A stretch of 47,465 nt of DNA, from positions 1 through 47,465 of the forward strand of contig CACZQK010000038.1 in NCBI GenBank assembly GCA_902783315.1, written 5' to 3'. This DNA is from an uncultured Erysipelotrichaceae bacterium (GTDB lineage Bacteria; Bacillota_I; Bacilli_A; RF39; UBA660). The notes under the pieces were generated by a model. The model saw only the letters and a list, made by a program, of their open reading frames with translations, was not told where the DNA came from and searched no databases. Of this stretch, positions 14,521-32,875 are shown in pieces; positions within the stretch are counted from its first letter, which is position 1, and each line of letters opens with the position of its first letter. Both the position numbers and the translations under genes were made by a program.

Positions 14521-16632
14521 CTATGAAACTTTATAATAATGAACTATAGTTGCATCATTAGGATTATATCTCTCCCACAAATCCGTATAATCTGTTCCAG
14601 GATCTATCATTCGTATCTTATCACCATCAATATAATCTAATGCAACCCAATGTTCACTCTTACCAACCTCTGCAACAGCATATACACCAGGCTGACTCAT
14701 AATTGCTTTAATTTGATTTGATTTATTCTCTTTTCCACCTGTTAGGACAACTGATCCCTGATCCTTAAACGCTGGTATAAGTCTCGTAGCCGCATCCCAC
14801 AAAAAAGATCCATTTGGAGTAAAACCTCCGATTTGATTTAATTTTTCAACAAAAGTTCCCGGATTAAAGTTTGCACTAACAGCAGATAATCCACTTTTTT
14901 GAATTAATATAGCCATCGACGTAGCTAAACATCCAATATCCTTAATGGTTTTGCCACTATTTCCAACGGGAGTAGAAATCCAAGGTCCTGAATTTTGCCT
15001 CCAATGAACATAATCCCCAGAAGCTGGACAATTACTCCCTGTGCCACTACAACTAGCTTTCTGAAGTCCACTTACATTATAATTCTTACTAGTCTGGTTA
15101 TATACTTGCACTAAAATTTGTTTATAAGTTAACCCTTTTTTGGCTAAAGAAACAAACTTATTCAAAATACTTTGATTATTTTGATCAACTTGATGATAAT
15201 CAGCATATACAACATATCCTTGACTATTAACCAAAAGTTCTCCTTGTGTTTGCGTAGCATACTGTCTTAAAGATGAATCAGTTGCCAAAGCGTTTTTCGA
15301 AAATCCTCTATTATAATTTAATCCACTATGGACTTCTCCCCACTGTTGATCATTAGAAGAACAACCTTGATCAGGATCACAGTAAACAGGATCTAAATTA
15401 CAAGCAGCCACTTGTAAAACCCATTTACCATTTTCTTCTTTTTTAAGAGTTCTCCAACCACCCATCACTAAATGACGAGCTAAAATATAGCTTCTGAGGG
15501 ACACCATTTGAGCTTTAATCGCCTCTGCTGGACTATCGGACCCTAGCTCCTTATATGCAACTCCTAAAACATATTTTTCAAAAGGAATTAGCTCCTCACC
15601 AACTAAAGGTTGACCAAATGTTCCACCATAATTATGACCATTAGTAGATCCACATTGCATCAATCGAACATATAAATCAGAAGGCTTAATACTATTTGGA
15701 ACATTTCCCTTCCCAGGAATATAAAAGCCTTTTATATCATAAGTACAGCTAACAGGCCCAGAACAAACCGGTTCTGGAGGAGTCTTTCCCGTTAAATCAT
15801 AATATTTTTCAATATAATCAAAGACTTCTTCAGCCATATCTTCTCTTTCTCTTTGAGATGATTTTGGTAAATATTTAGGAATCAAGGACGAAACTAAATT
15901 ACTTTTAAAGGCCTCATCTCCACCAAGCATAGCATCCATTATTTCCTTAATTCTTTCATCAGTCATTTTTTGATAATCAACATTAGCCCCATTTCTTTCT
16001 AATACATGAAAAACAGCTTCTACTTTTAAAGAATCAACGTATTTTCCTTGTGTTTGATACTGATTTTTTAAGGAATTAACGCGATCATAAAAATCCTGTT
16101 GATCTAAAGTACCTGCAGAAAAAGAAATCTCACTTTCATCCACATCAATACCTACAGCCCCTTCAAATTCTTTAAAAACACTAGCAATACAAGCAATAAA
16201 AATAATAATAATCAAAAGCACTATAAGAGAAGGTAAAAGGAAAATAACAATTTTTCTTACAATAGAACCAGCTAAAAAACTAGCAATACCACTACTATCT
16301 TCATTTTTATCTTCTTTTTTATCTTCACTAATATTACTACTATCTTCTGAACTAAAAAAAGATTTTTTCTTCCCTTCATTAAAAGAACTAGAATCAGATA
16401 CAGGTGATGTCCGAGGAGGGACAGGAACAGAGTCTACTGGAACATCTGAAGAAGGAAGAGAATCAAAATCTCTTCCTAAATCACCTTCTTGACTAGATTC
16501 AATAGTCATGCCTCCTTTTTTAAAAAAAGGATTATTAGGGTTGGGCTTAGTACCACGCCTTAAATTTTCTTGTGCTCTATGCACATTATCTTTTGAAATA
16601 GCCGCTTGAAGTTTTTTTCCTGTATTTGGCAC
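14521..16632 (-). CDS. SpoIID-like / C39-like peptidase wall hydrolase (VirB1 role)
   Basis: 703 residues from the GTG at 16632 (AGGTGG ten bases upstream; two GTGs closer to it are badly spaced). A disordered Ser/Pro/Lys-rich cytosolic part (1 to about 120) is followed by one membrane segment (about 125-150) and an extracellular portion. At about 345-480 lies a SpoIID-type domain: FEKYVLGVAYKELG, then AEAIKAQMVSLRSYILAR, the Glu-bearing blocks of SpoIID/LytB transglycosylases. At about 545-700 comes a C39-like peptidase domain: DIGCLATSMAIL (Cys), SEHWVALDY (His), MIDPGTDY (Asp). Gram-positive conjugation systems use two-domain wall hydrolases (PrgK, TcpG) as VirB1; this one pairs different folds for the same likely job of opening peptidoglycan. 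Confidence 0.8.
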   Translation of the reverse strand: MPNTGKKLQAAISKDNVHRAQENLRRGTKPNPNNPFFKKGGMTIESSQEGDLGRDFDSLPSSDVPVDSVPVPPRTSPVSDSSSFNEGKKKSFFSSEDSSNISEDKKEDKNEDSSGIASFLAGSIVRKIVIFLLPSLIVLLIIIIFIACIASVFKEFEGAVGIDVDESEISFSAGTLDQQDFYDRVNSLKNQYQTQGKYVDSLKVEAVFHVLERNGANVDYQKMTDERIKEIMDAMLGGDEAFKSNLVSSLIPKYLPKSSQREREDMAEEVFDYIEKYYDLTGKTPPEPVCSGPVSCTYDIKGFYIPGKGNVPNSIKPSDLYVRLMQCGSTNGHNYGGTFGQPLVGEELIPFEKYVLGVAYKELGSDSPAEAIKAQMVSLRSYILARHLVMGGWRTLKKEENGKWVLQVAACNLDPVYCDPDQGCSSNDQQWGEVHSGLNYNRGFSKNALATDSSLRQYATQTQGELLVNSQGYVVYADYHQVDQNNQSILNKFVSLAKKGLTYKQILVQVYNQTSKNYNVSGLQKASCSGTGSNCPASGDYVHWRQNSGPWISTPVGNSGKTIKDIGCLATSMAILIQKSGLSAVSANFNPGTFVEKLNQIGGFTPNGSFLWDAATRLIPAFKDQGSVVLTGGKENKSNQIKAIMSQPGVYAVAEVGKSEHWVALDYIDGDKIRMIDPGTDYTDLWERYNPNDATIVHYYKVS

Positions 16633-16656
16633 TAAAATCACCACCTAACATTTCTT

Positions 16657-18447
16657 TTAAAAACCGCCACCTGTTCCAAAGGAATCTAATTCCTCTTTAG
16701 TAACTGTAATATTGATTCTCATCCGCCTGCTACCACATACAAACAAAGCTTCTCCTTGAGAATAATGCTTAATACTTTCTTTTTCACTCTCATTTAAATC
16801 AATCAATAAAGCTAAATCTTCAACCGCTTGTTTTCGAAGTCCCATAACAAGATAATAAGATGAATTATCAAAAATAGCTTTACCTTGAGTAATAACTGAA
16901 GGATCAGAAAAGTCTGTCGGTTGCTGAGTGATAATAACTGTACCAGTATTATACTTACGAGATCTTCTTTGTAATTGTGCTAAGAAATCTGCACCCAAGG
17001 CATTATTACTTCCTAACAAGACATGAGCCTCATCAACCATTAAAACTGTATCCAAACTAAAATCTAAACACAATCCCCAAGCATATTTCAAAACATTAAA
17101 AAATAAAGCATTTTTTATTGTCGTATCACTATTCATAAGTTCTTTAATATTAAAAACCATAAAGTCACTACCTTTTTTAATAGTAGTATGACCATCAAAA
17201 TAGAATTTTAATTCATTAACAATTGGACGAATTTTTAATTCTAATCGCTCCATAATTTCTCTTTCCTGAGTATGATCCGTCATAGACATAAGTCTTCCTC
17301 GAATCGTTGCATAAACATCACTAAAAGTTGGATAATCACCAGATGTAAAATGAGAAAAGTCTGTATTAAAATCAATACCAAAACGCTTATAAGTATCTTG
17401 AACAACCTCAGAAAACATTGCAAGAACATCTTCTTCAATAGACGGATCATAATATTTCATAAAGGCTTTTAAAAATTGCAAAGTTCTTGTTAAAACAGTA
17501 TAACCTAACCCTTGCTTGATTTCTTCTTCATCAACATCAATAACGATCTCAAGTGGATTGATTAAACCAAAAGTACCACCTTTTCCAATATCAATTGTAT
17601 CTCCACCAAAAGCCTTAGTTAATTCACGAAATTCATCTTCTGGATCAATAATAACGATTTGACAACCATTACGAATATGAGATCTTAATAATAGCTTTGC
17701 AGCAGTAGACTTTCCAGAACCAGATGTACCTAAAATAATCATATTAGCATTATTTCTATTATTCTCTTTTCGAATCTTATATAAAAATTGATTAAATAAA
17801 ATAACCCCTCCAGAAAAATCAACTCCAAGAAGAGTAGAAAGCCCCGGATCTTTAATACTGTCAAAAATAAACGGATACATAGCAGACATAGTAACACTAG
17901 GAATAGGAGTACCAATTCTTTGTTCAATATCCTGAGCAGGGAAAATTGGAAGAATAGATTTTAAGGCCTTTTCCTGTTCAAAACGTAAAGGAATAGCCCT
18001 CAATTCCATCGCATCTAAATAGTTTTTAACATTTAATTTTTTTAATTCTAAATCTTCTTTGGTATCCGCTGTAATCATAATATGCATTTGAAAATCAAAA
18101 TTTCTAGACTGACTACCAGCAATCATTGATGTAAAATATTCCAAACTTTCAGCATCTTGACGAATTCTCTCACGTACTGTTTGGTCTTTTTCATCTTGAT
18201 AACGTTGTTTTAATTCGGCTACTTGCTTATTTAACATCTTTTGCATATCCTGGGCAGGAACCGGAATATGTTTTACAACAATCTTTATTCCGCTCATACT
18301 AGTTAAAGAAGATAAATAACCAGGAGAAATATACTTAGGATAAGAAACAACTGTTAAAATAGTTGCATATTTATCACTAATAAAAAACTCACTAGGTGAA
18401 AAATGTAATCCCTTAGGGGCTAATTGACTTCGTAATCCTGTACTCAT
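16657..18447 (-). CDS. virB4: VirB4-type ATPase, main (C-terminal) part
   Basis: 596 residues, cytosolic ATPase that powers type IV secretion channel assembly and pilus growth. Walker A GTSGSGKST begins at about 240, Walker B VLMVDEAH is at about 468-475, followed by QLQRRSRKYNTGTVIITQQP, the diagnostic VirB4/TraC block. It starts at about the middle of the usual VirB4 N-terminal domain. The missing N-terminal part is encoded by the previous gene, whose TGA overlaps this ATG (ATGA). The two together total 780 residues, the normal VirB4 length. Confidence 0.93.
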   Translation of the reverse strand: MSTGLRSQLAPKGLHFSPSEFFISDKYATILTVVSYPKYISPGYLSSLTSMSGIKIVVKHIPVPAQDMQKMLNKQVAELKQRYQDEKDQTVRERIRQDAESLEYFTSMIAGSQSRNFDFQMHIMITADTKEDLELKKLNVKNYLDAMELRAIPLRFEQEKALKSILPIFPAQDIEQRIGTPIPSVTMSAMYPFIFDSIKDPGLSTLLGVDFSGGVILFNQFLYKIRKENNRNNANMIILGTSGSGKSTAAKLLLRSHIRNGCQIVIIDPEDEFRELTKAFGGDTIDIGKGGTFGLINPLEIVIDVDEEEIKQGLGYTVLTRTLQFLKAFMKYYDPSIEEDVLAMFSEVVQDTYKRFGIDFNTDFSHFTSGDYPTFSDVYATIRGRLMSMTDHTQEREIMERLELKIRPIVNELKFYFDGHTTIKKGSDFMVFNIKELMNSDTTIKNALFFNVLKYAWGLCLDFSLDTVLMVDEAHVLLGSNNALGADFLAQLQRRSRKYNTGTVIITQQPTDFSDPSVITQGKAIFDNSSYYLVMGLRKQAVEDLALLIDLNESEKESIKHYSQGEALFVCGSRRMRINITVTKEELDSFGTGGGF

Positions 18448-18998
18448 ACTGGCATCACCGTCCCAAACTCCGTAGTATTACCCCCATTTAAGAAATTTTC
18501 AAGTACAAATCTTAAATCTGAATTACTAACCAAAGATGCATTTAATCCACAAGTTGCTAAACCATTAATCATTTGACGAACTCTTTTCTGCAATAAATCC
18601 ACATCTTTTCCTTTAAACAGAAAATAATATTCTGTATCAACAACATTATTGCGAATAAAAGCATCTCCTTTTTCAATATCTTGCATAATGAGTTTACGAA
18701 TAGCGGGAGATTTTGTTTCATTAAGTAACAATTGCATTTGAGACATATAAATAGAAATATCCACAGGTCTATCCGCAACAACTAACCAAAATTCATAATC
18801 TATCGTATTATAAAAATTACGAAGACTAATTAATATATTATTTTGCATCTCTGGATCCAAAATAAATATATTTCTAGGAGAAATTTTAACACCCGTTACT
18901 TTAAGATTATCCCGAGTAATAATCATATTATTTTGAATAGTCTTTACAGGTAACCAATCTTCTGTAAAACCACTATTTTTTCCTCTTTTTGTCGCCAA
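18444..18998 (-). CDS. VirB4 N-terminal part encoded separately
   Basis: 184 residues with no ATPase motif. The text DWLPVKTIQNNMIITRDNL, then GVKISPRNIFILDPE, then NTIDYEFWLVV, resembles the N-terminal domain of VirB4/TrbE proteins, where a beta-rich segment begins the protein before the ATPase. The start is a TTG overlapping the VirB3 gene by 26 bases; the first internal ATG would remove a quarter of the conserved part. The end overlaps the ATPase gene by four bases in another frame, so the two chains are probably made by coupled translation and assemble together. A recent frameshift of one virB4 is the alternative. Confidence 0.75.
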   Translation of the reverse strand: MATKRGKNSGFTEDWLPVKTIQNNMIITRDNLKVTGVKISPRNIFILDPEMQNNILISLRNFYNTIDYEFWLVVADRPVDISIYMSQMQLLLNETKSPAIRKLIMQDIEKGDAFIRNNVVDTEYYFLFKGKDVDLLQKRVRQMINGLATCGLNASLVSNSDLRFVLENFLNGGNTTEFGTVMPV

Positions 18999-19314: not shown

Positions 19315-21438
19315 TTATTTCTTTCCTTGACTATTAGCTCGGTTCATAATATGTCTCATATCTGTACTCATATCGGAAACAGCAGTGTTTGCTTTGCCAA
19401 TTGTCGTACCAATATCCTTATAAGCATCTGCATGATGCCTAACATCTCCAAGATAATCGCCACTATATGTTAAATCAGCTTCGTCCATATCATGACGAGC
19501 ATTACGCCACTCCGTATTAAGTTTATCATTGTCAAAGCCAGTCTTACCAGCTCTAATACCCTTATCCCATTCACTACGTAAATAACTTGCAGTTTGAGAA
19601 TCTTCAATATCAGCCATTACCCCAGTATCAAACCAAGCAGCATTCAAATGATGAACATTCCCTTGCCTATCAATATAATCAAAATTACCAGAAGTATCTT
19701 TAGTTCCCATAGCAGCCTCTAATTCACGGTAATTAAACTGAATTCCTTGCAAACGATGAAAACGATCTTTTGCACTAGAAACTGTACCATAATCTCCTTT
19801 TTTCATAGACTCTTCAACTGCAGTCGTTTTAAATTGTTTGAGCGAGCTAGCAGCAGCTTTATTAGCATCCAATATTCCCTGATCTCGAGTCGCTAAACTT
19901 CTTCCCGAAACCATTCCATATATATCATTGCCAATACGACCAGGTAAAGTAGAATGTGCAGCACGTTGAGCATTTCTCTGGCTTTGAGCTGCTAAAACAG
20001 CCTTAGCAGAAGCGTCTTTGCCCATAAGTGCTTTAGCACCTACATAACCTCCACCAATTGCACCAGCAATGGTAGAACCAAAATTACGTACCCCTCTCAA
20101 CAATTTATTATTAGGATATAAAGCCTTACCTTCTTCAGAAGAAGCTCTATAGTTAGCCGCTGCACTACCAACAATTCCTAAGCCAGCTGTCCCAACAGCC
20201 ATAATTTCTCCAAATCCTCCAAATAAGCTTCCAATGTCTTGCTTTAAACCCAATACCTCTTTGATGAACTTTGGAGCCTGTTTTGCAAAAATAAATAATC
20301 CAAACCAAATAAGAATTAGAGAAAAAATTCCCAATATACCACTACCACTATTAATACGAACACCTGTAGCAATCATTTCTTGGATAATAGCTATAACAAA
20401 ATAAACAGAACCTAATCGAATAAATAAATCTAAATAAGTTGAAGTTAAAGTCTTAACCCAAGCATTAAATGATCCATCCGTTGATCCTTTAGGATTCATA
20501 TAAGCAATAATCGGAATAGGTGCAATTAAGCGTAAAACAACAAGCTTAACAGCTCGAACAGCTACATCAACAGTAAAGCTAAGCATGATAAATGCAAATA
20601 CAAAACCCACTATAGTAGAAATAAAAGGCATATAAGCAAAAACATATTTCTTACTTCCGTTAGTAGAACTAAGTACCGGAATATGATTTGCTAAACTAAA
20701 ATCCGGTTCACAAGTTTCATTAACCATATCAATAATTTCACCAGGATCTGCATCTACTCTAGTATAATTATCAAGTATCTTATCATCTATATTTTGACAA
20801 ATTCTATTAGCATTAAACACAGCATCATCTTTACCATCTTCATGTCTTGGTCTCTGGCCCTCAGGTAATAGATTGATACGATAAAATCCCTTTAATACAG
20901 TCGAAGTAAAGATTCTCGAGGCTGCCTTCAAATTTGAACTATCATTACTAGTAGACATATAATCATTAGAAGTTCCCATAATAAGTCTTCCTAAAGTATT
21001 ATTAGACAAAATACGATTTTGTAAAGAATATAATGTCCCAAATAGTAACCCATTATTATTAATTTGCGCATCAAATTCAGTACTTCCACCAGTTTTTATT
21101 GGAACCATCAAAGTAAGTAAAATTAAAGCAACAACAACCCGAGTTACAAAATTACCTATTCCAGACTTTTTATCAAAGAAAGAATCTGGATTCATTATCC
21201 CACGTAAAATAATCATAGCAAGCTGAAATAACATAAATACACTAAGAATCAACTGAATACGTCCATAAAACTTCATCATCATATTACTAGCAAAAATATC
21301 AGCAGAAGCAACATTAAAAAATAATTGATAAACGATTTCCAAAAGCCAATAAGCCGGCCTATCTAATGTCGAAAAAACTGCTCGAATACCGGAATGAATA
21401 AAATTAGCTGATGCTGTATAAGATTCTCCCAATTGCAC
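19315..21438 (-). CDS. virB6: VirB6/TrbL-like polytopic channel protein
   Basis: 707 residues. The first half holds about six hydrophobic segments with a large loop (about 130-280) between them; MIILRGIMNPDSFFDKKSGIG and the block FAFIMLSFTVDVAVRAVKLVVLRLIAPIPIIAY are typical of Gram-positive VirB6/TrbL proteins. The C-terminal 250 residues are Gly/Ala-rich then hydrophilic, probably cytosolic. VirB6 forms the inner-membrane channel with VirB3 and VirB4. The start codon is uncertain: GTG at 21438 is very near AAGGTG, while a TTG two codons on is better spaced. Confidence 0.85.
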   Translation of the reverse strand: MQLGESYTASANFIHSGIRAVFSTLDRPAYWLLEIVYQLFFNVASADIFASNMMMKFYGRIQLILSVFMLFQLAMIILRGIMNPDSFFDKKSGIGNFVTRVVVALILLTLMVPIKTGGSTEFDAQINNNGLLFGTLYSLQNRILSNNTLGRLIMGTSNDYMSTSNDSSNLKAASRIFTSTVLKGFYRINLLPEGQRPRHEDGKDDAVFNANRICQNIDDKILDNYTRVDADPGEIIDMVNETCEPDFSLANHIPVLSSTNGSKKYVFAYMPFISTIVGFVFAFIMLSFTVDVAVRAVKLVVLRLIAPIPIIAYMNPKGSTDGSFNAWVKTLTSTYLDLFIRLGSVYFVIAIIQEMIATGVRINSGSGILGIFSLILIWFGLFIFAKQAPKFIKEVLGLKQDIGSLFGGFGEIMAVGTAGLGIVGSAAANYRASSEEGKALYPNNKLLRGVRNFGSTIAGAIGGGYVGAKALMGKDASAKAVLAAQSQRNAQRAAHSTLPGRIGNDIYGMVSGRSLATRDQGILDANKAAASSLKQFKTTAVEESMKKGDYGTVSSAKDRFHRLQGIQFNYRELEAAMGTKDTSGNFDYIDRQGNVHHLNAAWFDTGVMADIEDSQTASYLRSEWDKGIRAGKTGFDNDKLNTEWRNARHDMDEADLTYSGDYLGDVRHHADAYKDIGTTIGKANTAVSDMSTDMRHIMNRANSQGKK

Positions 21439-21455: not shown

Positions 21456-21917
21456 TTACTTAAGTCCACAAATTGAAGTAAAACCAAAAAGGTCCAACAT
21501 TACCTCTACTAATAACGGAATAAAAAATAATAACCCCGCCAATATTAGCCTATGTCCCAACTTCTTTATTGCTTTTGTCATAGATTCATCATCACTATTA
21601 ATAATAACTTTGGCAAAATCAAGACCACTAAGAATAACCACCAAGATTGGTCCAATAATTTTAATAAAATTAAATATTTGTTGCAACAACCAAGCAACAG
21701 AATCTTCATCCGTTGGATCACCTAAAAGAGAATTACAATTCTGATCTTGAATATCTGGAGCAAACCATTTTTCAACACTTTGTGAATCATCTTTTCTATT
21801 AAGTAAATAAGCTGAATCTGAAATAGAATTAGTCACTTCAAAAGCTTTTGCAGAAATAGGAAAAATAGAAAACATAATTCCAATAAAAAACAAACAAGTT
21901 ATCAATTTCGTACGCAT
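21456..21917 (-). CDS. VirB2-like pilin b, with signal peptide
   Basis: 153 residues from the ATG after GGAGTGG. A Sec signal peptide (about 1-25, ending near SAKAFE) is followed by an extracellular segment, then two membrane helices (about 85-105 and 128-148) joined by a short basic loop, the VirB2/TrbC layout. Residues VILSGLDFAKVIINSDDESM and LILAGLLFFIPLLVEVMLDL match VirB2a (22011-22340) over both helices. One Cys lies before the first helix (QNCNSLL) and one at the C terminus (SICGLK), placed as in VirB2a. It is the first gene of the channel operon and may be a second pilin or a channel subunit. Confidence 0.8.
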   Translation of the reverse strand: MRTKLITCLFFIGIMFSIFPISAKAFEVTNSISDSAYLLNRKDDSQSVEKWFAPDIQDQNCNSLLGDPTDEDSVAWLLQQIFNFIKIIGPILVVILSGLDFAKVIINSDDESMTKAIKKLGHRLILAGLLFFIPLLVEVMLDLFGFTSICGLK

Positions 21918-21934
21918 AAAACCACTCCGCAAAT

Positions 21935-21943
21935 ATTATATCA
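21935..21943 (-). promoter_or_regulatory. Extended -10 promoter of the channel operon
   Basis: Minus strand TGATATAAT (21943-21935), 18 bases before the start of VirB2b and after the terminator of VirB2a. No good -35 box; the TG extension may compensate. Confidence 0.5.
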
Positions 21944-21961
21944 TAATAAGTATATCAAAGT

Positions 21962-21991
21962 AAAAAAAAAATAGCAATGAAATTACCATTT
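21962..21991 (-). terminator. Terminator after VirB2a
   Basis: Minus strand AAATGGTAAT, loop TTC, ATTGCTATTT, then a long T run. The ten-pair stem (two G-U pairs) separates VirB2a from VirB2b. Confidence 0.8.
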
Positions 21992-22010
21992 TTTGGTTTA
22001 GAGTAAAAAA

Positions 22011-22340
22011 CTACTGAGTCGCTGAACTCCAACAATTCCACCAACTGCTTGTATCTCCTTCTCCACCTACAGCAACAATATTCATAACAACACCAACTAA
22101 CATTGGAACAAAGAAAATCAAAGCTGCATAGATGAATCTTTTAATTAATCTACCTTGTGCACTTTTTACTTCCTTCTCATCACTAGCAATAACAGCCTTA
22201 CCTAAATCAATCGTACCATAGACAATTAAAGCTATTGGAATAATAATCATAGCAATTCTTATAACTTGTACAATAACGCGAATTAAAGGTAATAACCCAC
22301 CGCAATCATCAGCTGCTCCAATTAAAAATAAATTTGCCAT
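22011..22340 (-). CDS. VirB2-like pilin a, no cleavable signal peptide
   Basis: 109 residues. The N terminus MANLFLIGAADDCGG is short with no Sec signal. Two membrane helices (about 18-42 and 68-90) flank a charged loop, GKAVIASDEKEVKSAQGRLI, in the VirB2 pattern. Cys in DDCGG and in the C-terminal WWNCWSS parallel the two Cys of VirB2b, suggesting a conserved disulfide between the two exposed ends. The gene is alone between a near-consensus promoter and a terminator, as expected for an abundant pilin subunit. Confidence 0.8.
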   Translation of the reverse strand: MANLFLIGAADDCGGLLPLIRVIVQVIRIAMIIIPIALIVYGTIDLGKAVIASDEKEVKSAQGRLIKRFIYAALIFFVPMLVGVVMNIVAVGGEGDTSSWWNCWSSATQ

Positions 22341-22363
22341 AAAACAACCTCTCTTTCAACAAT

Positions 22364-22393
22364 ATTATAATATTTTATGTCAGGTTTTGTCAA
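22364..22393 (-). promoter_or_regulatory. Strong promoter of VirB2a
   Basis: Minus strand TTGACA (22393-22388), 18 bases, TATAAT (22369-22364). Both hexamers are perfect consensus. It begins just after the tadZ stop. Confidence 0.85.
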
Positions 22394-22398
22394 TGAAT

Positions 22399-23415
22399 TT
22401 AACGCCTAAATAGGCCAAATATTCGATTAGAATTGCTTGAATTAGCATTATTTGAGTTTAATAACCCAATTTTTATTAAAAAATCATGAATAATAGCATT
22501 CCTTTTTCTCTCGTCAAGTGGAGGTAAATTATATAAAACTTTAATACCTGCTTCACCCTCAAAATCAAAAACATCGTTATTTAATAACAAGCTTTTATTT
22601 AAAATAACTTTATTCTTAGAAAGTTGATTAAATATTTCCTTATTTCTATGAATTAGTTTGTTTAATTTAATTGTACTAGGTTCTATTAAAAATAAAAGAT
22701 CAGAACAAAAACTAGTATCTTTACAAGAGTTCAAATCAACCAAAATAATATTAGCTTTGGCATACTTCTGAAGAATAGATTTCACTTCATTTTCTTTACA
22801 TGAAATCATACCCTTATCTCGAAATAATTGAAAATCACTCTTTTCTATTTCAATTGCCAAAACGTTTTCATACCCATAAATAATAGCTAACTCTTTCTTT
22901 AACATATATATTAAAGTAGTAGCACCAGCATGATCAGTAACATTGCGAAATCCCATAATAGTAACTCCACTTTTTACTCCATGGTTTGATATAAGGGCAA
23001 CATTAGCCCCAGTATCTTGAGATTCTTGAGTATGAACCATTTTTTTAATGGATTCTACATCTTTTAATGTATTAGGTTTCTTTAACAAATATTTTACACC
23101 AGTTAAATTTGTTGTAAAATTATAAATACCCAAAGATATCAAATGAGATAAAAAATTAGGAGTACACAAACGACTTCCTTCAGGTAGCAAAAAAATAATT
23201 TTTTCTGGGCTTAACCCTTTAGCTAAAAGTTCATAAGAATGTATATCATCATAATTATAAATAGCTGTTACATCTAAAATCATTTTACTATAAAAAAAGT
23301 TCTTAAACATTTCTACAATTTCTGCAACTTCATAAGAACCTGATACACTTTTAATAATATCAACATCTAAATTAGCCAATGCATTTCTCTGTTCATTCGC
23401 TACAATCACATTCAT
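22399..23415 (-). CDS. tadZ: TadZ/CpaE-like ParA-family protein with altered P-loop
   Basis: 338 residues. Residues 1 to about 130 look like the atypical receiver domain of TadZ/CpaE, with ILDVTAIYN in the place of the phospho-acceptor strand and SLGIYNF near the end. The rest is a MinD/ParA-type ATPase in outline, but the P-loop reads MGFRNVTDHAGATTLIYML (about 154-172). The usual K-G-G-x-G-K-T/S is replaced by D-H-A-G-A-T-T, lacking the signature lysines. TadZ proteins often have G-A-T-T here, but the upstream Lys-Gly-Gly is normally kept. It probably directs pilus-machine placement at the membrane or pole, with weak or no ATP hydrolysis. It follows the TadE-like genes. Confidence 0.7.
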   Translation of the reverse strand: MNVIVANEQRNALANLDVDIIKSVSGSYEVAEIVEMFKNFFYSKMILDVTAIYNYDDIHSYELLAKGLSPEKIIFLLPEGSRLCTPNFLSHLISLGIYNFTTNLTGVKYLLKKPNTLKDVESIKKMVHTQESQDTGANVALISNHGVKSGVTIMGFRNVTDHAGATTLIYMLKKELAIIYGYENVLAIEIEKSDFQLFRDKGMISCKENEVKSILQKYAKANIILVDLNSCKDTSFCSDLLFLIEPSTIKLNKLIHRNKEIFNQLSKNKVILNKSLLLNNDVFDFEGEAGIKVLYNLPPLDERKRNAIIHDFLIKIGLLNSNNANSSNSNRIFGLFRR

Positions 23416-23430
23416 AGATTACCAACTTCC

Positions 23431-23892
23431 TTATTTTTTCTTTTCTTTATATATTGTCTTTGTATCACCAGAAATTTTAAAAACATCTAAGTCAAAAATA
23501 TTATCAATAATTGGAATTTCAATATTAATTTTAGTAACTATTCGATAATATACACCATTAGCTCGATCATTTATACTATCATCTGATGTTATCCGAGTAT
23601 TAACAGCAATTTCATCATAACAATATAAATTTTTGTAACCTGGAGTCATCCCATTACAATGGAAAGTACTTCTGTTTGGTTTATAACCAATCTCATTGGC
23701 ATATTTCTCTATATTAGCAGGACATATACCAGATCCACAATCTCCTTCTGCCTTCTCATACTCACTAATAATCTTATTTTTCATACGAAAGGCTTTAGTA
23801 TAGTTAACGTTAAATGCCATATAACCAAGAGCAACAACAATAAAAACCACTATAATGATAACGTTAACAGCACCACCCAAAGAATCTCGCAT
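23431..23892 (-). CDS. TadE-like minor pilin 1
   Basis: 153 residues: MRDSLGGAVN, one hydrophobic helix (about 9-28), then an extracellular domain with four Cys. It is a clear paralogue of the next upstream gene; shared blocks are NYTKAFRMKNK, a C-x-x...C region ending EIGYKPN, LYCYDEI, YYRIVTKINIEIPI and FKISGDTKTI. The layout fits TadE/TadF-type minor pilins. The ATG has GAGGTGAG upstream. Confidence 0.7.
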   Translation of the reverse strand: MRDSLGGAVNVIIIVVFIVVALGYMAFNVNYTKAFRMKNKIISEYEKAEGDCGSGICPANIEKYANEIGYKPNRSTFHCNGMTPGYKNLYCYDEIAVNTRITSDDSINDRANGVYYRIVTKINIEIPIIDNIFDLDVFKISGDTKTIYKEKKK

Positions 23893-23901
23893 CTACTCAC
23901 C

Positions 23902-24348
23902 TCATTTATTTGAAATATCAATCATACGGGTATCTCCCTTTACTTGAAAAAATTCAAGACTCATGATTTCTCGAACAATAGGAATATGAACATCAACTTG
24001 AGTAATAACTCGATAATATGTCTGTTTTCTAGAGGAAGAATTATCTACTTCCATTTGCTTATAACAAAATAGTCCCTCTTTTGATTCATAGTTACGAGGG
24101 CATCTTAAATTAGAAGGAGAATAACCGATGCTTTCAGCGTCTTCACTTATTTTTTTTAAACATGCAGTATCAAGATTGTTAGACTCAAAGCAAGCAGAAG
24201 CCTCATACTGTTCTACAGCAGAAAGAACAATATTCTTCATTTTAAAAGCCTTAGTATAATTAACAGTCATTCCCAAAATTCCTTCTACAATAACTAAAAA
24301 TAAAACAATCAAAACTAAGTTAACAATCCCACCAAAAGCATCTTGCAT
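23902..24348 (-). CDS. TadE-like minor pilin 2
   Basis: 148 residues, paralogue of the previous gene: MQDAFGGIVN, a hydrophobic helix (about 9-30), then NYTKAFKMKN, ESIGYSPSN, LFCYKQM, YYRVITQVDVHIPI, FFQVKGDTRMI. Four Cys in the external domain keep the spacing of the paralogue, suggesting two conserved disulfides. The helix contains a Glu (VIVEG), which the paralogue lacks. Confidence 0.7.
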   Translation of the reverse strand: MQDAFGGIVNLVLIVLFLVIVEGILGMTVNYTKAFKMKNIVLSAVEQYEASACFESNNLDTACLKKISEDAESIGYSPSNLRCPRNYESKEGLFCYKQMEVDNSSSRKQTYYRVITQVDVHIPIVREIMSLEFFQVKGDTRMIDISNK

Positions 24349-24361
24349 TCAGTATTCACTC

Positions 24362-24553
24362 CTATCTTTCTAAAACAATCAAACCAACTGAACCATGATT
24401 ATTATTTGCTCTAGTATTTCCACTAATGTCCTCCCATTGGCCTTGAATTGCACCTTGGATATTAGGCCACATCAACCAGAAGAAGGCAATAACAGCCCCA
24501 ATAGCAATCAAAGTAATTACTGTTAAGTTTAATTCACCTGTAGCTGCTTTCAT
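24362..24553 (-). CDS. Small single-helix pilin (Flp-like candidate)
   Basis: 63 residues: MKAATGELNL, one hydrophobic helix (about 9-30), then a short polar tail. Size, position at the head of an operon with a good promoter, and the neighbouring TadE-like and tadZ genes fit a Flp-type major pilin. It lacks the canonical Flp motif (G with Glu and Tyr shortly after), so the name is inference. Its first six residues share a Gly6 with both TadE-like proteins. AAAGGACG is about twelve bases before the ATG. Confidence 0.6.
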   Translation of the reverse strand: MKAATGELNLTVITLIAIGAVIAFFWLMWPNIQGAIQGQWEDISGNTRANNNHGSVGLIVLER

Positions 24554-24590
24554 ATATTTATCACGTCCTTTCTTACTTTTTCATAAAATA

Positions 24591-24619
24591 ATTATAGCAA
24601 AATTACATTTATTAAACAA
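24591..24619 (-). promoter_or_regulatory. Promoter of the Flp-like/TadE/tadZ operon
   Basis: Minus strand TTGTTT (24619-24614), 17 bases, TATAAT (24596-24591) preceded by TGC, an extended -10. The 230-base gap to tadC holds this promoter and the terminator of the previous unit; nothing else is visible. Confidence 0.72.
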
Positions 24620-24763
24620 TACATTTTATTTTATTTTTTTTAATAACATAGTAACTAAATAAAGGTAAAATAATGATAAAACAATTTCAAACAAATTGTA
24701 AAAAATCAATATTTCAATACTTTTATTCATAATTTAATATGTAACACCTTGACACTTTTATAC

Positions 24764-24787
24764 AAAAAAAAGAGAATAAATCCCTTT
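24764..24787 (-). terminator. Terminator at the end of the tadA-B-C unit
   Basis: Minus strand AAAGGGA, loop TTTAT, TCTCTTT followed by Ts. Seven pairs including one G-U; the stem starts within the tadC stop codon. Confidence 0.72.
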
Positions 24788-25589
24788 AAAACATCATCAT
24801 CATTGAAATTAAAATAACTAACATAACTCCAACACCAGTAACAACTAACATTATCATTGTTTGACTTTCCATATGATTAAGTCTTTCTTTATATTTAGTC
24901 TCTCTAGCTTTATTCTGCAAACTAGATACAGTTCTTGAAAACATCATAAGTCTTTCTTGCTTTCTCTCTTGAGAACCAATTCCTAAACGATATAAAAGCC
25001 TCATCATACGCATTGAATCTCGAACTGGATAAGTATTAGCAAATTCCATATATGGATCAACACTAGAATCTCCAGCATTAATACGATCAATCATTTTGCG
25101 AAGCCCAGGTTTAAATATTTCTGGAGCATCAGCAATAGATTTACCAATTGCAACAGGTACTGTATAGTGCTGGATTAATATTTCTAAACTCTTTAAATAA
25201 TAAGGCAACATAACATCAATTTCATGTAAATGTTGTTTATAATAGCTTTTTAATTGAGTATATGGTAGTTTAAAAGCAACAACCCCAACAACAGTGGCCA
25301 AAACTAAGTTTAAGAAAAATTGAGAATTAAAAATCTCTGCTGAAGAATTTCTTGTAACAGTTAACACCAAAACAAATAAGAAAGCTACAAAAGCATAAAT
25401 GACCCTTTTAGAATACAACTGATCAATATCAACATCTTCACCATATTTAGCATAAACAAGAAATTGATAATCATCTTCTTTAAAAGCCTCTAAATATTTC
25501 TGATTATCAGCAAAAAATTTATCTTTATCAATAGTATTATTATAAACTAGTACATACATGATAACTGCACCTACGATTAATATCTCCAT
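24786..25589 (-). CDS. tadC: TadC-like inner-membrane platform protein
   Basis: 267 residues, T2SSF-domain protein. An N-terminal helix, two central helices (about 65-105), a cytosolic domain with LPYYLKSLEILIQHYTVPVA and the C-terminal GVGVMLVILISMMMMF helix give the Tad platform layout. The stop of tadB overlaps the start (TAATG), so translation is coupled. It probably pairs with TadB to anchor the CpaF motor. Confidence 0.85.
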   Translation of the reverse strand: MEILIVGAVIMYVLVYNNTIDKDKFFADNQKYLEAFKEDDYQFLVYAKYGEDVDIDQLYSKRVIYAFVAFLFVLVLTVTRNSSAEIFNSQFFLNLVLATVVGVVAFKLPYTQLKSYYKQHLHEIDVMLPYYLKSLEILIQHYTVPVAIGKSIADAPEIFKPGLRKMIDRINAGDSSVDPYMEFANTYPVRDSMRMMRLLYRLGIGSQERKQERLMMFSRTVSSLQNKARETKYKERLNHMESQTMIMLVVTGVGVMLVILISMMMMF

Positions 25590-26491
25590 TACTCAGCACC
25601 TACATTCTCATAATAATATTTTTCACCTTTTAATAGGAAATATGTATTAATGACTAAAACTCCGTGCATTAAAAACTGAATATACCATCTTTCAAGCAAA
25701 ACCAAATAGGTTTCACGTCCTAATAAATATTGGACTAACATAACCATTAAATACAACATAATACCAAATTGTAAAAAAGACTTATGGAAAGAAGCTCTTT
25801 CAATTCTATCCCGATATACACTTTCAACAAGCATATCAATATCTAATTGCATATTCTCTAAAGAATCTGCTGAGTTTTGAGCACCTTCCTTTGTAATTTG
25901 TAAAAATAATTGATGCATATTTTTTACAATATAATACGGATATAATTTACTCATATAATCCAAAGCTTCATCAATAGTACCATTATCGTAACTCATACTA
26001 ATCATTTGTCTTACATCAGAAAGGACAGGATCTTCCAAAATTCCAGAATTAGCAACTCCCTCCAATGCTTTTACAAAAGATTGGGTAGTAGCAAATTCCA
26101 TAATAGTATTAGATGTATACACTTGTATTTGTTCAAATAAAAACTCTGAATAAACTTTTTTACAACGTAAATACGTAAGATATGGAATAAAAGAAATAGC
26201 AATTAAAGCATATATAATACTAATAATCAAGTTATAAAAATATAAATAAGTAACAACAGAAGCAAAAGTAGCAAACAACGCTGCCTGAATAGCATATTGT
26301 TTAGGCGTATACTCTTGTCCTAATTGTTTTGTTTTTTCACGAACAACTTTAAAAGAATAAGGTGAAAATCTGTCATATGCATTTTGGACTTGCCCAAGAA
26401 TATATTTACCAAGATTATCACCTTTATAATTCCTATATAGATAAATAAATATAACAGCAGCTGCAATAACAAATAACTCAGTCAAATACAT
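25589..26491 (-). CDS. tadB: TadB-like inner-membrane platform protein
   Basis: 300 residues, T2SSF-domain protein. Helices lie near the N terminus, at about 70-110, and two at the C terminus (about 240-290). The cytosolic part holds TYLRCKKVYSEFLFEQIQVY and TQSFVKALEGVANSG, typical of Tad platform proteins. It sits between cpaF and tadC, the standard tad order. Confidence 0.85.
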   Translation of the reverse strand: MYLTELFVIAAAVIFIYLYRNYKGDNLGKYILGQVQNAYDRFSPYSFKVVREKTKQLGQEYTPKQYAIQAALFATFASVVTYLYFYNLIISIIYALIAISFIPYLTYLRCKKVYSEFLFEQIQVYTSNTIMEFATTQSFVKALEGVANSGILEDPVLSDVRQMISMSYDNGTIDEALDYMSKLYPYYIVKNMHQLFLQITKEGAQNSADSLENMQLDIDMLVESVYRDRIERASFHKSFLQFGIMLYLMVMLVQYLLGRETYLVLLERWYIQFLMHGVLVINTYFLLKGEKYYYENVGAE

Positions 26492-26506
26492 AAAACAAAC
26501 TCCTCT

Positions 26507-27964
26507 CTATTCTTCTAATCTAGCCATAGTATTAGGCAAAACATTGCCAGGAACAGTTCCCGATTGAACAGGGGGCTGAATTACTACCTGTTGTTGAGGA
26601 ACACTAGGTGCAAAAACAGGTTGAGTATGAACAACATTAGAAGAAATAGAAGGTAGAACCTGACTTTGTGTTGCTGTCAGTTGAGGCAAAGCCTGTGCTG
26701 ATATAGCATTACTAGTTACATCATTTACCTGAGTCAAACCAGAATTAATAACTGGTGCTACTTGCACTTGTTTTTGTGCAGAAGCAATTGAAGAACTGTT
26801 TGCAACATCGCCACCAACTTTTGACAACTTTTTACTATCAACTGTAAAAGAACTTCCTTCAGAACCATCTCCTCCTTCTGAAGAAACAGTCTCATGAACC
26901 GGTAATTCCAAAGGCAAATCCTTTATAATATCTTGAACCTCAATATTTTGGTTTTCAAGATATTCTATCAAATGATTACTTGGCCTACACATCATCGGTT
27001 TTCCAAAAATCTTTTGATAAATAATTCTCGATCTAGGAACATTTTCATCATCTACATAAAACTCAGTAACTTCATCAACTTCACGATGAAATTTACCATA
27101 TTCTTTACTATAAAAAGCTTTAATATGAACACCTAATTGAATGTAACGATAAATAGTTGATAAAAACTGATGCACATCCAAATCTGTTTCCATTAAAGAA
27201 TACAAACGATACGGAATAGCTGATGCTTTATCCGCATGAATAGTAGATAAAATATTATGACCAGATGAAATAGAATTACGAACAGCAGAAACAGCCTCAG
27301 CAGAACGTACCTCAGACAAAAGAATCCACTTAGGATTCTGACGCATACAAGTAACCAATACATCAGAGTAACTTGCAACATTATTTGTCTTCATAGCTAC
27401 AATATCCCTTTGTGGGAAAATCCTGTCTAAATGAAGTTCCAAAGTATCCTCTATTGTAATAATTTTCTCATTAGTCTTAGTATGACTAGCTAAATATTTA
27501 ACAAATTCTGTTTTACCAGAACCAGTTTCTCCAGCAACCATAATATTGCAATGACCTTGAACACACTTTATTAAAAAATCATGAATTGCAGGCGTAAAAT
27601 AATCTTCTTGAATTAGTTTTTCTTTCTGTAATCTTATCTTCGCAGGAGTTTTACGAATAACTAACGCAATACCATTAGTAGCAATAGATTGATGCACAAA
27701 ATTCATACGCAACTCTGCAGACTCTGCATCCAAAAAAGGCTTTGCGTTATTAAAAGTAGTTCCCATAACATTAGAACATTGGAAGGCTAATTTCTCCACA
27801 AACTCAGGAGTAGCCCCTTCCACTTCTACCCGTAAAGAACCTTGGGTTAATGAACGAATCCATATTTGTCCACCATTGTCATATGAGATATCAGTAATAT
27901 CATCATTATCTAACAACGAACGAAAAGGACCAAAGTCCAATTTATCGAAAATATTCTCGTTCAT
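26507..27964 (-). CDS. cpaF: CpaF/TadA secretion ATPase (VirB11 superfamily)
   Basis: 485 residues, hexameric cytosolic motor of Tad pili. Walker A GETGSGKT is at about 145-152, then the Asp box TIEDTLELH, the Walker B-like WILLSEVRSAEAV, and the His box TIHADKASA. Residues from about 370 form a long tail rich in Gln, Ser, Val and Pro (about 115 residues) with no counterpart in typical CpaF, presumably disordered. In Gram-positive conjugation systems a VirB11 ATPase is normally absent, so this enzyme might serve both halves of the locus. The ATG has GGGAGGG upstream. Confidence 0.9.
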   Translation of the reverse strand: MNENIFDKLDFGPFRSLLDNDDITDISYDNGGQIWIRSLTQGSLRVEVEGATPEFVEKLAFQCSNVMGTTFNNAKPFLDAESAELRMNFVHQSIATNGIALVIRKTPAKIRLQKEKLIQEDYFTPAIHDFLIKCVQGHCNIMVAGETGSGKTEFVKYLASHTKTNEKIITIEDTLELHLDRIFPQRDIVAMKTNNVASYSDVLVTCMRQNPKWILLSEVRSAEAVSAVRNSISSGHNILSTIHADKASAIPYRLYSLMETDLDVHQFLSTIYRYIQLGVHIKAFYSKEYGKFHREVDEVTEFYVDDENVPRSRIIYQKIFGKPMMCRPSNHLIEYLENQNIEVQDIIKDLPLELPVHETVSSEGGDGSEGSSFTVDSKKLSKVGGDVANSSSIASAQKQVQVAPVINSGLTQVNDVTSNAISAQALPQLTATQSQVLPSISSNVVHTQPVFAPSVPQQQVVIQPPVQSGTVPGNVLPNTMARLEE

Positions 27965-27985
27965 TATGTTCCCTCCCTTTTATTC

Positions 27986-28804
27986 TTAACTCTCTGTCCA
28001 GTAAGTCATCTTTTCAATCCACTCTTTTAAGTCTTCACTACTAATCTTAAGTTCTCCAGGTTCATCCTTTAAACTTTCATTTGTAGGAACCAAAACTAAT
28101 TGAGTTTCATAAGTTCTCATGTATTCTGCTTTCTTTAGTAAAATATAATATTCCTTAGGGACAGCAAATACAACCATTGAAGGTTTCCTATTCTCATCAA
28201 TATTTTGAAAAACAGGTTGCCCTTCTGAATCTTTTACAGCAAGAACCTGAATATTAGAAAGCAATTCACCATACATAATTTTATCTGCATTTTGTTTTTC
28301 TTCTGGTGTCATATTAGTATTATCACTAACCTTATAGACAGATTTCAAGTAAATATCAATATAATTACCTGGATAAACAGAATTACCATAAGTAGAATCT
28401 GTCGTAACAGATAAATTATAAAGAACATATCCTTTTGGATAATCCAAAATAATATTAGCTGGCAATTGTTCTTTTTCTACAACAGCACGCTTGTAAAAAA
28501 GACTACCTTCTGGAATAACTGTATCTGCAGCTGAATACTTATCAATAATTTCTCCTTTATTTCGAAGAACATCACCTGTCAACATAGAAGGTGGAACTTC
28601 ACGAGTAGAAATCATCGATTCAGTAATTTGAGTACCTGCAGGTATTTGTTCATTTGCATAAGGTACAACTATAGGATTTATTGCAGAATTGATACGCCAT
28701 ACATATACAAAATACAAAAATATAATAACTCCAACAAAACCAACAACTGTAACAGTATTTTTGTTTTGCATAAACTTTTTCAAACCTGAAGTTAAGTTTC
28801 CCAT
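27986..28804 (-). CDS. cpaB: CpaB/RcpC-like pilus assembly protein with SAF domain
   Basis: 272 residues. One membrane helix (about 17-36) then an extracellular SAF-type domain: VVPYANEQIPAGTQITESM, REVPPSML, IPEGSLFYKRAVV, and YPGNYIDIYL, the CpaB order. CpaB works outside the membrane on pilus assembly, possibly by contacting the wall. It lies directly upstream of cpaF as in typical tad loci. Confidence 0.85.
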   Translation of the reverse strand: MGNLTSGLKKFMQNKNTVTVVGFVGVIIFLYFVYVWRINSAINPIVVPYANEQIPAGTQITESMISTREVPPSMLTGDVLRNKGEIIDKYSAADTVIPEGSLFYKRAVVEKEQLPANIILDYPKGYVLYNLSVTTDSTYGNSVYPGNYIDIYLKSVYKVSDNTNMTPEEKQNADKIMYGELLSNIQVLAVKDSEGQPVFQNIDENRKPSMVVFAVPKEYYILLKKAEYMRTYETQLVLVPTNESLKDEPGELKISSEDLKEWIEKMTYWTES

Positions 28805-28822
28805 TTTATTCTTTCCTTTCTC

Positions 28823-29329
28823 TTATGAACTTACTTTACAAAAGTTAGCCTTTTCATCGTTATAAGGTTCAATTTGTTTTAAAATAGCCTCAGTTACAGG
28901 ATCATAACCATAATTTGTTTCTATAATTGCATCATAACTAGTTGTAATATCTGCAGCTTCTTTTTTGCCTTTTTCCTCACCACCAGTTACATTAAAAGCA
29001 AGTACAGTTAAAGAATCAACTTTAATACTAACTTTTGGTGGAACTTCATTGATATCATAAAATCCAATAGAATAATTACGGCTATTATCTACGCTATCAG
29101 CGAATCGATAAAGAAAGCTCTCAACGAACTTTTCTTTATCGATACGATATAAACCACATGTTTCATAATATTTCATGTCGATAGCATCTTCCATAGCAGC
29201 ATCTGTTGTCTCTTTTACAAGATAATAATCCAACTCACTACCAGTAGAATAATTTGTTAAAACATTAATTAATAATAATGCAATTATACTAAGTAATATA
29301 ATACCAACAGTTAACATACCTTTATTCAT
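28823..29329 (-). CDS. Single-pass pilin-like protein
   Basis: 168 residues: MNKGMLTVG then a hydrophobic helix (about 6-25) and a soluble external domain, with INVLTNY resembling the position of a pilin shaft. Two Cys (ETCGLY, NFCKVSS) could pair. It is between the Cys-rich protein and cpaB. A third TadE/TadF-like minor pilin is the best guess; similarity to the other two is limited to layout. Confidence 0.6.
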   Translation of the reverse strand: MNKGMLTVGIILLSIIALLLINVLTNYSTGSELDYYLVKETTDAAMEDAIDMKYYETCGLYRIDKEKFVESFLYRFADSVDNSRNYSIGFYDINEVPPKVSIKVDSLTVLAFNVTGGEEKGKKEAADITTSYDAIIETNYGYDPVTEAILKQIEPYNDEKANFCKVSS

Positions 29330-32079: not shown

Positions 32080-32875
32080 TGATCTCATCACCTTTCATAA
32101 TTTTTTCAATTCTATTATAATTGTCATTATTCTTAACAACATTATAATCACTTATAGACTCATCATCTCTTAAAAGTCGACCACTAACAACAAAGTCATA
32201 CTTATTTTCTTCTCCAAAAAATCTAGTACAAGTAGTCAAAGAAACAATTTTATCATTCTCTGATACCTCTACATCATAATTATATAAAGACTGTTTCTTA
32301 TAAAGACTAATCTGCTCTTTAATAGCATCTTTTGTATATTTACCATCTTGAATCAAGAAAATATTCATATCTACAATCGGAACAAAATCAACTGCAAATA
32401 TTTTATAAATATAATCTTTTCCATCATGAGTATACTGAATATATTTATTTTCTCTAGCAAAATCATAATATACAAAAGACATTAATTCTTCAAAACGAGT
32501 AAATTCCTTCGCCATTTTTCTTGGATTAGAAGAAAGATTGAATATATTATGTCCATTAATATTAACTACATCATCATATTTAGCATCTCTTTTAATAACC
32601 CACCCATATCCAGCTGGATCAACAGGATAAGGATTTGAATCATCTTGAGAAGATACAACTGGAAAGTCTATATTTGTTCCTTGAACCTTTAACCATCCAA
32701 CCGTATCATAATCTTCTACTTTTTCAGCAGATTCCACATTTTTTACTCTCGAATCAACTTTATAATAATGATTAGAAAAAGTTCTTTGATAAAGAAAGGC
32801 ACAAACAATTATAAAAATGAGACAGCCAAGAAAAACTAAGATGTTACCTAATTTATTTTCACTTACTTTTTTCAT
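32072..32875 (-). CDS. Class B-like sortase
   Basis: 267-residue membrane transpeptidase. N-terminal helix (about 10-28), then the catalytic set: His109 in NINGHNIFN, Cys216 in SLTTCTRFF (the T-L-x-T-C block), Arg233 in VVSGRLL. The long segment between His and Cys with a helix, and WLKVQGTNIDFPVV near the front, fit class B. Class B sortases attach pilins or specific proteins to the wall. I find no LPxTG- or NPxTG-like C-terminal sorting signal on any protein of the locus. It is next to the Cys-rich protein, so that protein or a pilin may be the substrate by an unusual signal. Confidence 0.85.
   Translation of the reverse strand: MKKVSENKLGNILVFLGCLIFIIVCAFLYQRTFSNHYYKVDSRVKNVESAEKVEDYDTVGWLKVQGTNIDFPVVSSQDDSNPYPVDPAGYGWVIKRDAKYDDVVNINGHNIFNLSSNPRKMAKEFTRFEELMSFVYYDFARENKYIQYTHDGKDYIYKIFAVDFVPIVDMNIFLIQDGKYTKDAIKEQISLYKKQSLYNYDVEVSENDKIVSLTTCTRFFGEENKYDFVVSGRLLRDDESISDYNVVKNNDNYNRIEKIMKGDEINE

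Follow-up and report, generated by a model that had tools for sequence, protein, structure and literature searches.

The window, by which we mean the whole 47,465-nucleotide (nt) stretch of DNA that was analyzed, carries a type IV secretion system (T4SS) locus with two small genes at its head, encoding the VirB2-like pilins VirB2a and VirB2b (Table 1). The genes that follow supply VirB4, VirB6, PrgI/VirB3, and VirD4, which is the MPF-FATA set; PrgI was assigned by position and size. Beyond the Tad genes lie a sortase, Ig-like surface proteins, and greA, and downstream of the T4SS are rmuC, tyrS, a thymidine kinase, and htpG. The order Tad-VirB2a-VirB2b-VirB6-PrgI-TrsD-VirB4-coupling protein (T4CP) was kept in 50 to 56 of the 56 full-length loci found in relatives, and its VirB6-PrgI-TrsD-VirB4 core in all 56. 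That the Tad locus is syntenic with the T4SS in at least 50 of 56 relatives suggests coordinated surface organelles. DUF6273-containing proteins (10022-11194 and 32890-34719) flank the Tad-T4SS region; one has Ig-like domains and is next to the sortase gene (32072-32875).

TABLE 1 Features of the T4SS locus and its surroundings in the window
Feature	Position	Strand	Basis or remark
VirD4-type coupling protein	11243..13678	(-)	PF02534, E=1e-56; in 55/56 loci
SpoIID-domain protein, possible cell-wall hydrolase of the T4SS	14521..16644	(-)	Profile match and locus conservation
VirB4 ATPase	16657..18447	(-)	NF045975, E=5e-106
TrsD-like/VirB4 N-terminal domain	18444..18998	(-)	NF045975, E=2e-15, profile positions 98-276
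PrgI/VirB3-like, 107 aa	18973..19296	(-)	Position and size; in 56/56 full-length loci
VirB6, extended, 707 aa, first channel gene after VirB2b	19315..21438	(-)	TrbL_4; Mbov_0396 family, weak
VirB2b	21456..21917	(-)	153 aa; Sec signal, short exported linker, pilin hairpin, C61 and C150; PF18895 24.2 bits, subthreshold
Shine-Dalgarno-like GGAGTGG of VirB2b	21922..21928	(-)	Sequence
Second candidate VirB2b promoter, TTTACT-18-TGATATAAT	21935..21964	(-)	Sequence
Conserved VirB2b promoter, TTGCTA-17-TGA-TATACT	21949..21977	(-)	Of the two candidates, the more conserved among relatives; -35 within the terminator's 3' arm
VirB2a intrinsic terminator	21962..21994	(-)	13-pair hairpin, 3-nt loop, T10; in 82/95 relatives
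VirB2a	22011..22340	(-)	Bare 109-aa pilin, no Sec signal, C13 and C103; PF18895 20.9 bits, subthreshold
Shine-Dalgarno-like GAGAGG of VirB2a	22348..22353	(-)	Sequence
VirB2a promoter, -10 TATAAT, 18-nt spacer	22364..22369	(-)	Among 18 exact-consensus promoters in the genome
VirB2a promoter, -35 TTGACA	22388..22393	(-)	Sequence; conserved in relatives
Tad-type pilus genes directly upstream	22399..29329	(-)	CpaF-like 26507-27964, RcpC/CpaB 27986-28804

RESULTS

Two divergent pilins of one family

VirB2a and VirB2b were 34% identical over 64 amino acids (aa) (E=1e-12, as a single comparison), and a comparison of their profiles gave a probability of 99.8% (E=4e-29). Judged by their sequences they are homologous but divergent PF18895-like pilins; a sequence-only reading of this DNA had proposed two divergent VirB2 pilins. 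Both scored weakly against PF18895 (T4SS_pilin; curated cutoff, 26.6 bits), although same-family pilins of relatives passed the cutoff in 22 of 58 genomes; we count the subthreshold scores of the two window pilins against the explanation that we favor below. The AlphaFold models are two-helix hairpins of moderate confidence (pLDDT, 79 for VirB2a and 76 for VirB2b), and the charge pattern, a basic loop between the helices with acidic ends, predicts that the N and C termini are both outside. A two-helix hairpin with a basic cytoplasmic loop and both ends outside is what is expected of a T4SS pilin, as is encoding together with VirB6, VirB3, and VirB4, and each of the two pilins was present in 55 of the 56 full-length loci. 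Searching solved structures by sequence with both pilin alignments gave no match at an E value of ≤1, a further point against that explanation, and Foldseek and VIA-align returned only generic helical hairpins for the models; bare hairpin folds are indistinguishable by fold search.

In a tree of 110 hairpins, which is roughly resolved because it rests on few columns, the labels a and b changed twice, versus a mean of 37 changes when the labels were shuffled. This pattern points to ancient paralogues that form nearly separate groups on the two sides of one branch. Some loci carry one, three, or four pilins, which also counts against our favored explanation. At one locus (L179:3028-3225, seen again as L095 from that contig), the VirB2a copy is shortened to 65 aa and its frame is broken, with VirB2b and VirB6 intact.

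VirB6 has a long hydrophilic C-terminal half. Its N-terminal hairpin (residues about 45 to 117) resembled VirB2b weakly in a profile comparison (65% probability, E=6e-5), whereas other membrane proteins used as controls stayed under 4%; the VirB6 platform protein may contain a pilin-like hairpin. A more general similarity between pilins and VirB6, obtained with iterated profiles, proved to be partly drift, and with clean alignments only the match between VirB2b and the VirB6 N terminus remained, which is suggestive.

Separate transcription signals

The promoter upstream of VirB2a matches the consensus exactly (TTGACA-18-TATAAT, 22393-22364). Of 94 relatives, 71% had a promoter with 11 or 12 of the 12 consensus positions in the 100 nt upstream of VirB2a (22 of them exact), versus 0.7% of Markov shuffles; the same survey found no promoter at this level upstream of VirB6. 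By pattern search, the 1.4-Mb source genome contains 18 exact TTGACA-17/18-TATAAT sites, versus 3 for the reversed-pattern control. Of the remaining sites, several lie upstream of tRNAs, rpmH, rpsP, the L10 leader, and rpsD, and thus the VirB2a promoter belongs to a class common to high-output genes.

Immediately after VirB2a is a hairpin (21994-21966) followed by a run of 10 Ts, with a folding energy of -8.4 to -8.8 kcal/mol. A standard terminator scan missed this A+T-rich terminator because the scan demands three G-C pairs. A hairpin with a T tract followed VirB2a in 82 of 95 loci, VirB2b in 6 of 95, and VirB6 in none of 95; in shuffled sequences the count was 24 of 475. The perfect-consensus promoter and the dedicated terminator claimed by the sequence-only reading are therefore both real and conserved. 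Together they support VirB2a as a private transcription unit, from which we infer that it is the more abundant pilin.

For VirB2b there are two candidate promoters of the extended -10 type. The motif TGnTATA(A/C)T occurred no more than 110 nt from VirB2b in 76 of 95 loci (shuffled, 3%), in keeping with the earlier proposal of a separate extended -10 promoter for VirB2b and the channel operon; in 48 of the 95 it was accompanied by TTGC(T/C)A at the spacing of a -35 element. In many relatives, as in the window, the 3' arm of the VirB2a terminator contains TTGCTA, so that the terminator overlaps the VirB2b promoter. The gap between VirB2a and VirB2b in relatives has a median of 79 nt, and that between VirB2b and VirB6 is typically 13 to 30 nt.

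Export and the N-terminal region of VirB2b

A heuristic for Sec signals was positive for VirB2b in 90 of 95 loci and for VirB2a in 3 of 95, which agrees with the split in Sec status that had been read from the window. Among 99 loci, VirB2b was bimodal: about half of the proteins have 15 to 144 aa before the hairpin, and the rest have about 190 to 580 aa (192 to 576). The VirB2b in the window is of the short class, its N-terminal region being reduced to a short linker. On the same roughly resolved tree of 110 hairpins, VirB2b switched between short and long about nine times. No Pfam domain was found in the N-terminal regions of 10 long pilin proteins (nine of the b type plus an internal pilin at L232). 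An exported N terminus that is variable and often very large would fit a displayed minor pilin of the tip, initiator, or adhesin type at least as well as it fits a channel part.

A conserved pair of cysteines

Each pilin has one Cys before helix 1 and one in the C-terminal tail. The earlier reading had proposed that this pair is conserved, and a check for nonconservation among the relatives bore it out. All 94 full-length VirB2a sequences have both (the automatic count was 91, the Cys lying just outside the counting window in three more), and the pair is invariant in a 50-row alignment; the sole real exception is the truncated copy at L179. For VirB2b, the automatic count was both Cys in 95 of 99, with two proteins (L169 and L151) having lost both and two scoring for one only. 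Losing both together is the pattern expected of a pair (Fisher's P=0.002, with phylogeny ignored). The background frequency of Cys in the hairpin is 0.3 to 0.6% per residue.

Because the predicted topology places the cationic loop inside and the anionic ends outside, both Cys would lie on the outer face of the membrane, the arrangement that a disulfide-closed pilin calls for. The pair probably forms a disulfide that ties the two ends of the hairpin together. Counting against this is that VKOR was not found in a search of 58 genomes and Thioredoxin_4 nearly so, in only 1 of the 58. On the other hand, the source genome codes for a secreted CPHC thioredoxin-like protein with a membrane anchor and for a CPHC thioredoxin joined to a membrane part that we read as CcdA/DsbD-like. 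An orphan small pilin is encoded near the secreted, membrane-anchored CPHC protein (L135:4720-5097 and 1252-1803; G000:C68), which has relatives, many of them weakly similar, in 120 of 145 genomes.

Taken as a whole, the set of features, namely, the paired pilins, the promoters, the terminator, the split in Sec signals, and the Cys pair, is real and conserved, far above chance.

Distribution and descent of the locus

The closest relatives of the VirB4 protein, at 81 to 95% identity, are in metagenome-assembled genomes (MAGs) of uncultured gut Bacilli from ruminants, rabbits, and birds. They include “Candidatus Onthousia” and “Candidatus Faecimonas,” are filed at NCBI under Bacilli incertae sedis, and are presumably GTDB RF39/UBA660. 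UBA660 (RF39) consists of uncultured, genome-reduced Bacilli (PMC13155120). An origin in the Patescibacteria, which PF18895 and the gene set had brought to mind, is ruled out by these relatives of VirB4.

Of 117 genomes of the order, 107 matched a VirB2a profile, whereas about 260 other Bacilli yielded one marginal match and none that was convincing. That profile is the VirB2a family's own, and unrelated VirB2 pilins elsewhere in the Bacilli could escape it. VirB4 was present in 123 of 145 genomes of the family, and its identity to the window protein tracked the identity of MutS (Pearson's r=0.84, n=106), as expected of vertical descent.

PF03432, the sole relaxase family searched, had no match in the source genome, which is about 72% complete; it matched in only 15 of 58 relatives, and there elsewhere than at the T4SS locus. 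The plasmid and viral contigs that were searched had no match to the module. We therefore rejected a mobile element (an integrative and conjugative element [ICE] or plasmid), given the lack of a PF03432 match in the source genome and of a plasmid or viral match, and the fixed chromosomal synteny.

DISCUSSION

It has been stated that Gram-positive T4SSs are without VirB2 except in the Patescibacteria (PMC12857230). In that group VirB2-like pilins and 441 tandem arrays have been described, the Gram-positive T4SS classes again being given as lacking VirB2 (PMC12102498), and a series of pilins is essential in Southlakia epibionticum (PMC10633639). Our literature search turned up no report of a T4SS in RF39. 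The locus resembles the patescibacterial systems in its monoderm-type VirB4, TrsD, PrgI, and VirB6, in having divergent PF18895-type pilins near virB4, and in being chromosomal, usually without a relaxase, in a small-genome lineage. It differs in phylum, in the adjoining Tad locus, and in a stereotyped split, with a bare pilin between a strong promoter and a terminator and then a Sec-exported, exodomain-bearing pilin heading the channel operon; the published text that we found on the patescibacterial arrays mentions no Cys pair, separate promoter, or exodomain-bearing pilin. With the MPF-FATA systems of Gram-positive bacteria and the Mycoplasma ICEs (VirB4 NF045975, Mbov_0397) it shares VirB4, for which NF045975 was the best family, and VirB6, PrgI, and VirD4, but those systems are described without VirB2 pilins (PMC12102498, PMC12857230), and unlike those elements the locus has a fixed chromosomal site and no PF03432, plasmid, or viral match. 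Thus, the kind of system is known already, and its occurrence in the Bacilli with a two-unit layout appears to be new.

The Gram-negative VirB2/TrbC/TraA pilins (R388, F, Agrobacterium) are likewise two-helix membrane pilins with a basic cytoplasmic loop, encoded with VirB6, VirB3, and VirB4. The window pilins differ from them in having no significant sequence match to solved pilins, in the lack of a Sec signal on VirB2a, and in ends that may be joined by a disulfide. Some VirB2/TrbC pilins are cyclized through a peptide bond. In the Gram-negative model, a VirB2 fiber stands on a VirB6 platform and carries a tip protein, and a VirB5-tip, VirB6-platform model has been summarized (PMC12857230). 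No VirB5 was recognized in the window locus, and we propose VirB2b as a functional stand-in.

The explanation that we favor, as probable but well short of secure, is that VirB2a is the bulk fiber subunit and VirB2b a low-copy, exodomain-bearing tip, initiator, or base subunit of a chromosomally fixed, conjugation-type T4SS. The cell would use two paralogous VirB2-like pilins in different amounts. VirB2a would be a bare two-helix pilin inserted into the membrane without a Sec signal; its near-consensus promoter and immediate terminator would uncouple its dose from that of the machine, which would make it the bulk subunit. VirB2b, whose own promoter leads the virB6-prgI-trsD-virB4 operon, would be made at the level of the machine and exported by Sec with its N-terminal exodomain (in the window genome, a short linker). 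Most likely it would enter the pilus in few copies beside VirB6, either as a base collar or as a tip or initiator, the role that VirB5 has elsewhere, and would present the exodomain to partner cells. The Cys flanking each hairpin on the outer face would probably join its ends. The transcript and protein ratio, polymerization, the tip or base position of VirB2b, the disulfide, and contact with other cells are what we infer here from the genes.

By sequence, a tip or initiator, a base collar, and a non-pilus channel part cannot be told apart for VirB2b, and the last of these was the model of the sequence-only reading: VirB2b would stay out of the fiber and, with its pilin fold, serve the VirB6 complex as a membrane subunit of the channel or platform, leaving VirB2a to form the pilus by itself. 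The position of VirB2b directly upstream of VirB6 with no terminator between them, and the weak similarity of the VirB6 N-terminal hairpin to VirB2b, speak for such a subunit. The large, fast-changing, Sec-exported N termini fit display on the outside better than a place in an inner platform, and VirB2b has kept the hairpin and Cys pair of VirB2a; on balance we consider a channel role rather unlikely. We regard it as unlikely, too, that there is no extracellular fiber and that both pilins line a short trans-wall conduit through the monoderm envelope, with strong expression of VirB2a supplying the lining. Most Gram-negative T4SSs require VirB2 pilins, whether or not they build a pilus (PMC12857230), and no fiber has been observed here, but strong and separately terminated expression signals for one subunit suggest that many copies are needed. 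That the two simply belong to a diversifying array (for varying antigens or host range) and have no set roles is very improbable: tandem variable VirB2 arrays are described in the Patescibacteria (PMC12102498), some loci have three or four pilins, and extra pilin-domain genes occur elsewhere in the genomes, but a and b are nearly separate in the hairpin tree, about 95 loci agree in gene order, in the contrast in Sec status, and in the distinct promoters and terminators of the two, and the two positions are largely strictly orthologous, with little interchange across the lineage.

A bolder reading, which we offer tentatively and regard as doubtful, is that a Gram-positive lineage outside the Patescibacteria makes a true T4SS pilus in which the major pilin is closed by a disulfide and the minor pilin, with its exodomain, replaces VirB5 as tip or initiator. 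For these reduced-genome gut Bacilli the pilus would be a fixed organelle for cell contact, possibly in the service of an epibiont-like lifestyle as in the Patescibacteria. Animal guts commonly harbor this Bacilli lineage, in which the VirB2-like pair is near-universal and occupies a fixed place on the chromosome with no recognized relaxase nearby. Such a setting suggests that a second small-genome lineage has domesticated the system as an organelle of contact or secretion. The division into major and minor pilins makes a simple prediction about transcripts, and how a monoderm T4SS pilus starts and makes contacts can be approached through the exodomain-bearing pilin and the near-invariant Cys pair.

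Pilin-domain genes also occur away from the T4SS locus. In the genome of the window, an orphan pilin-domain protein is fused to a C-terminal DUF4886/SGNH-like domain (L134:1673-2776; G000:C102). One relative (G057) has 15 or 16 pilin-domain genes scattered over the chromosome, many of them encoding proteins of 330 to 560 aa, which has the look of a large repertoire of displayed pilin fusions.
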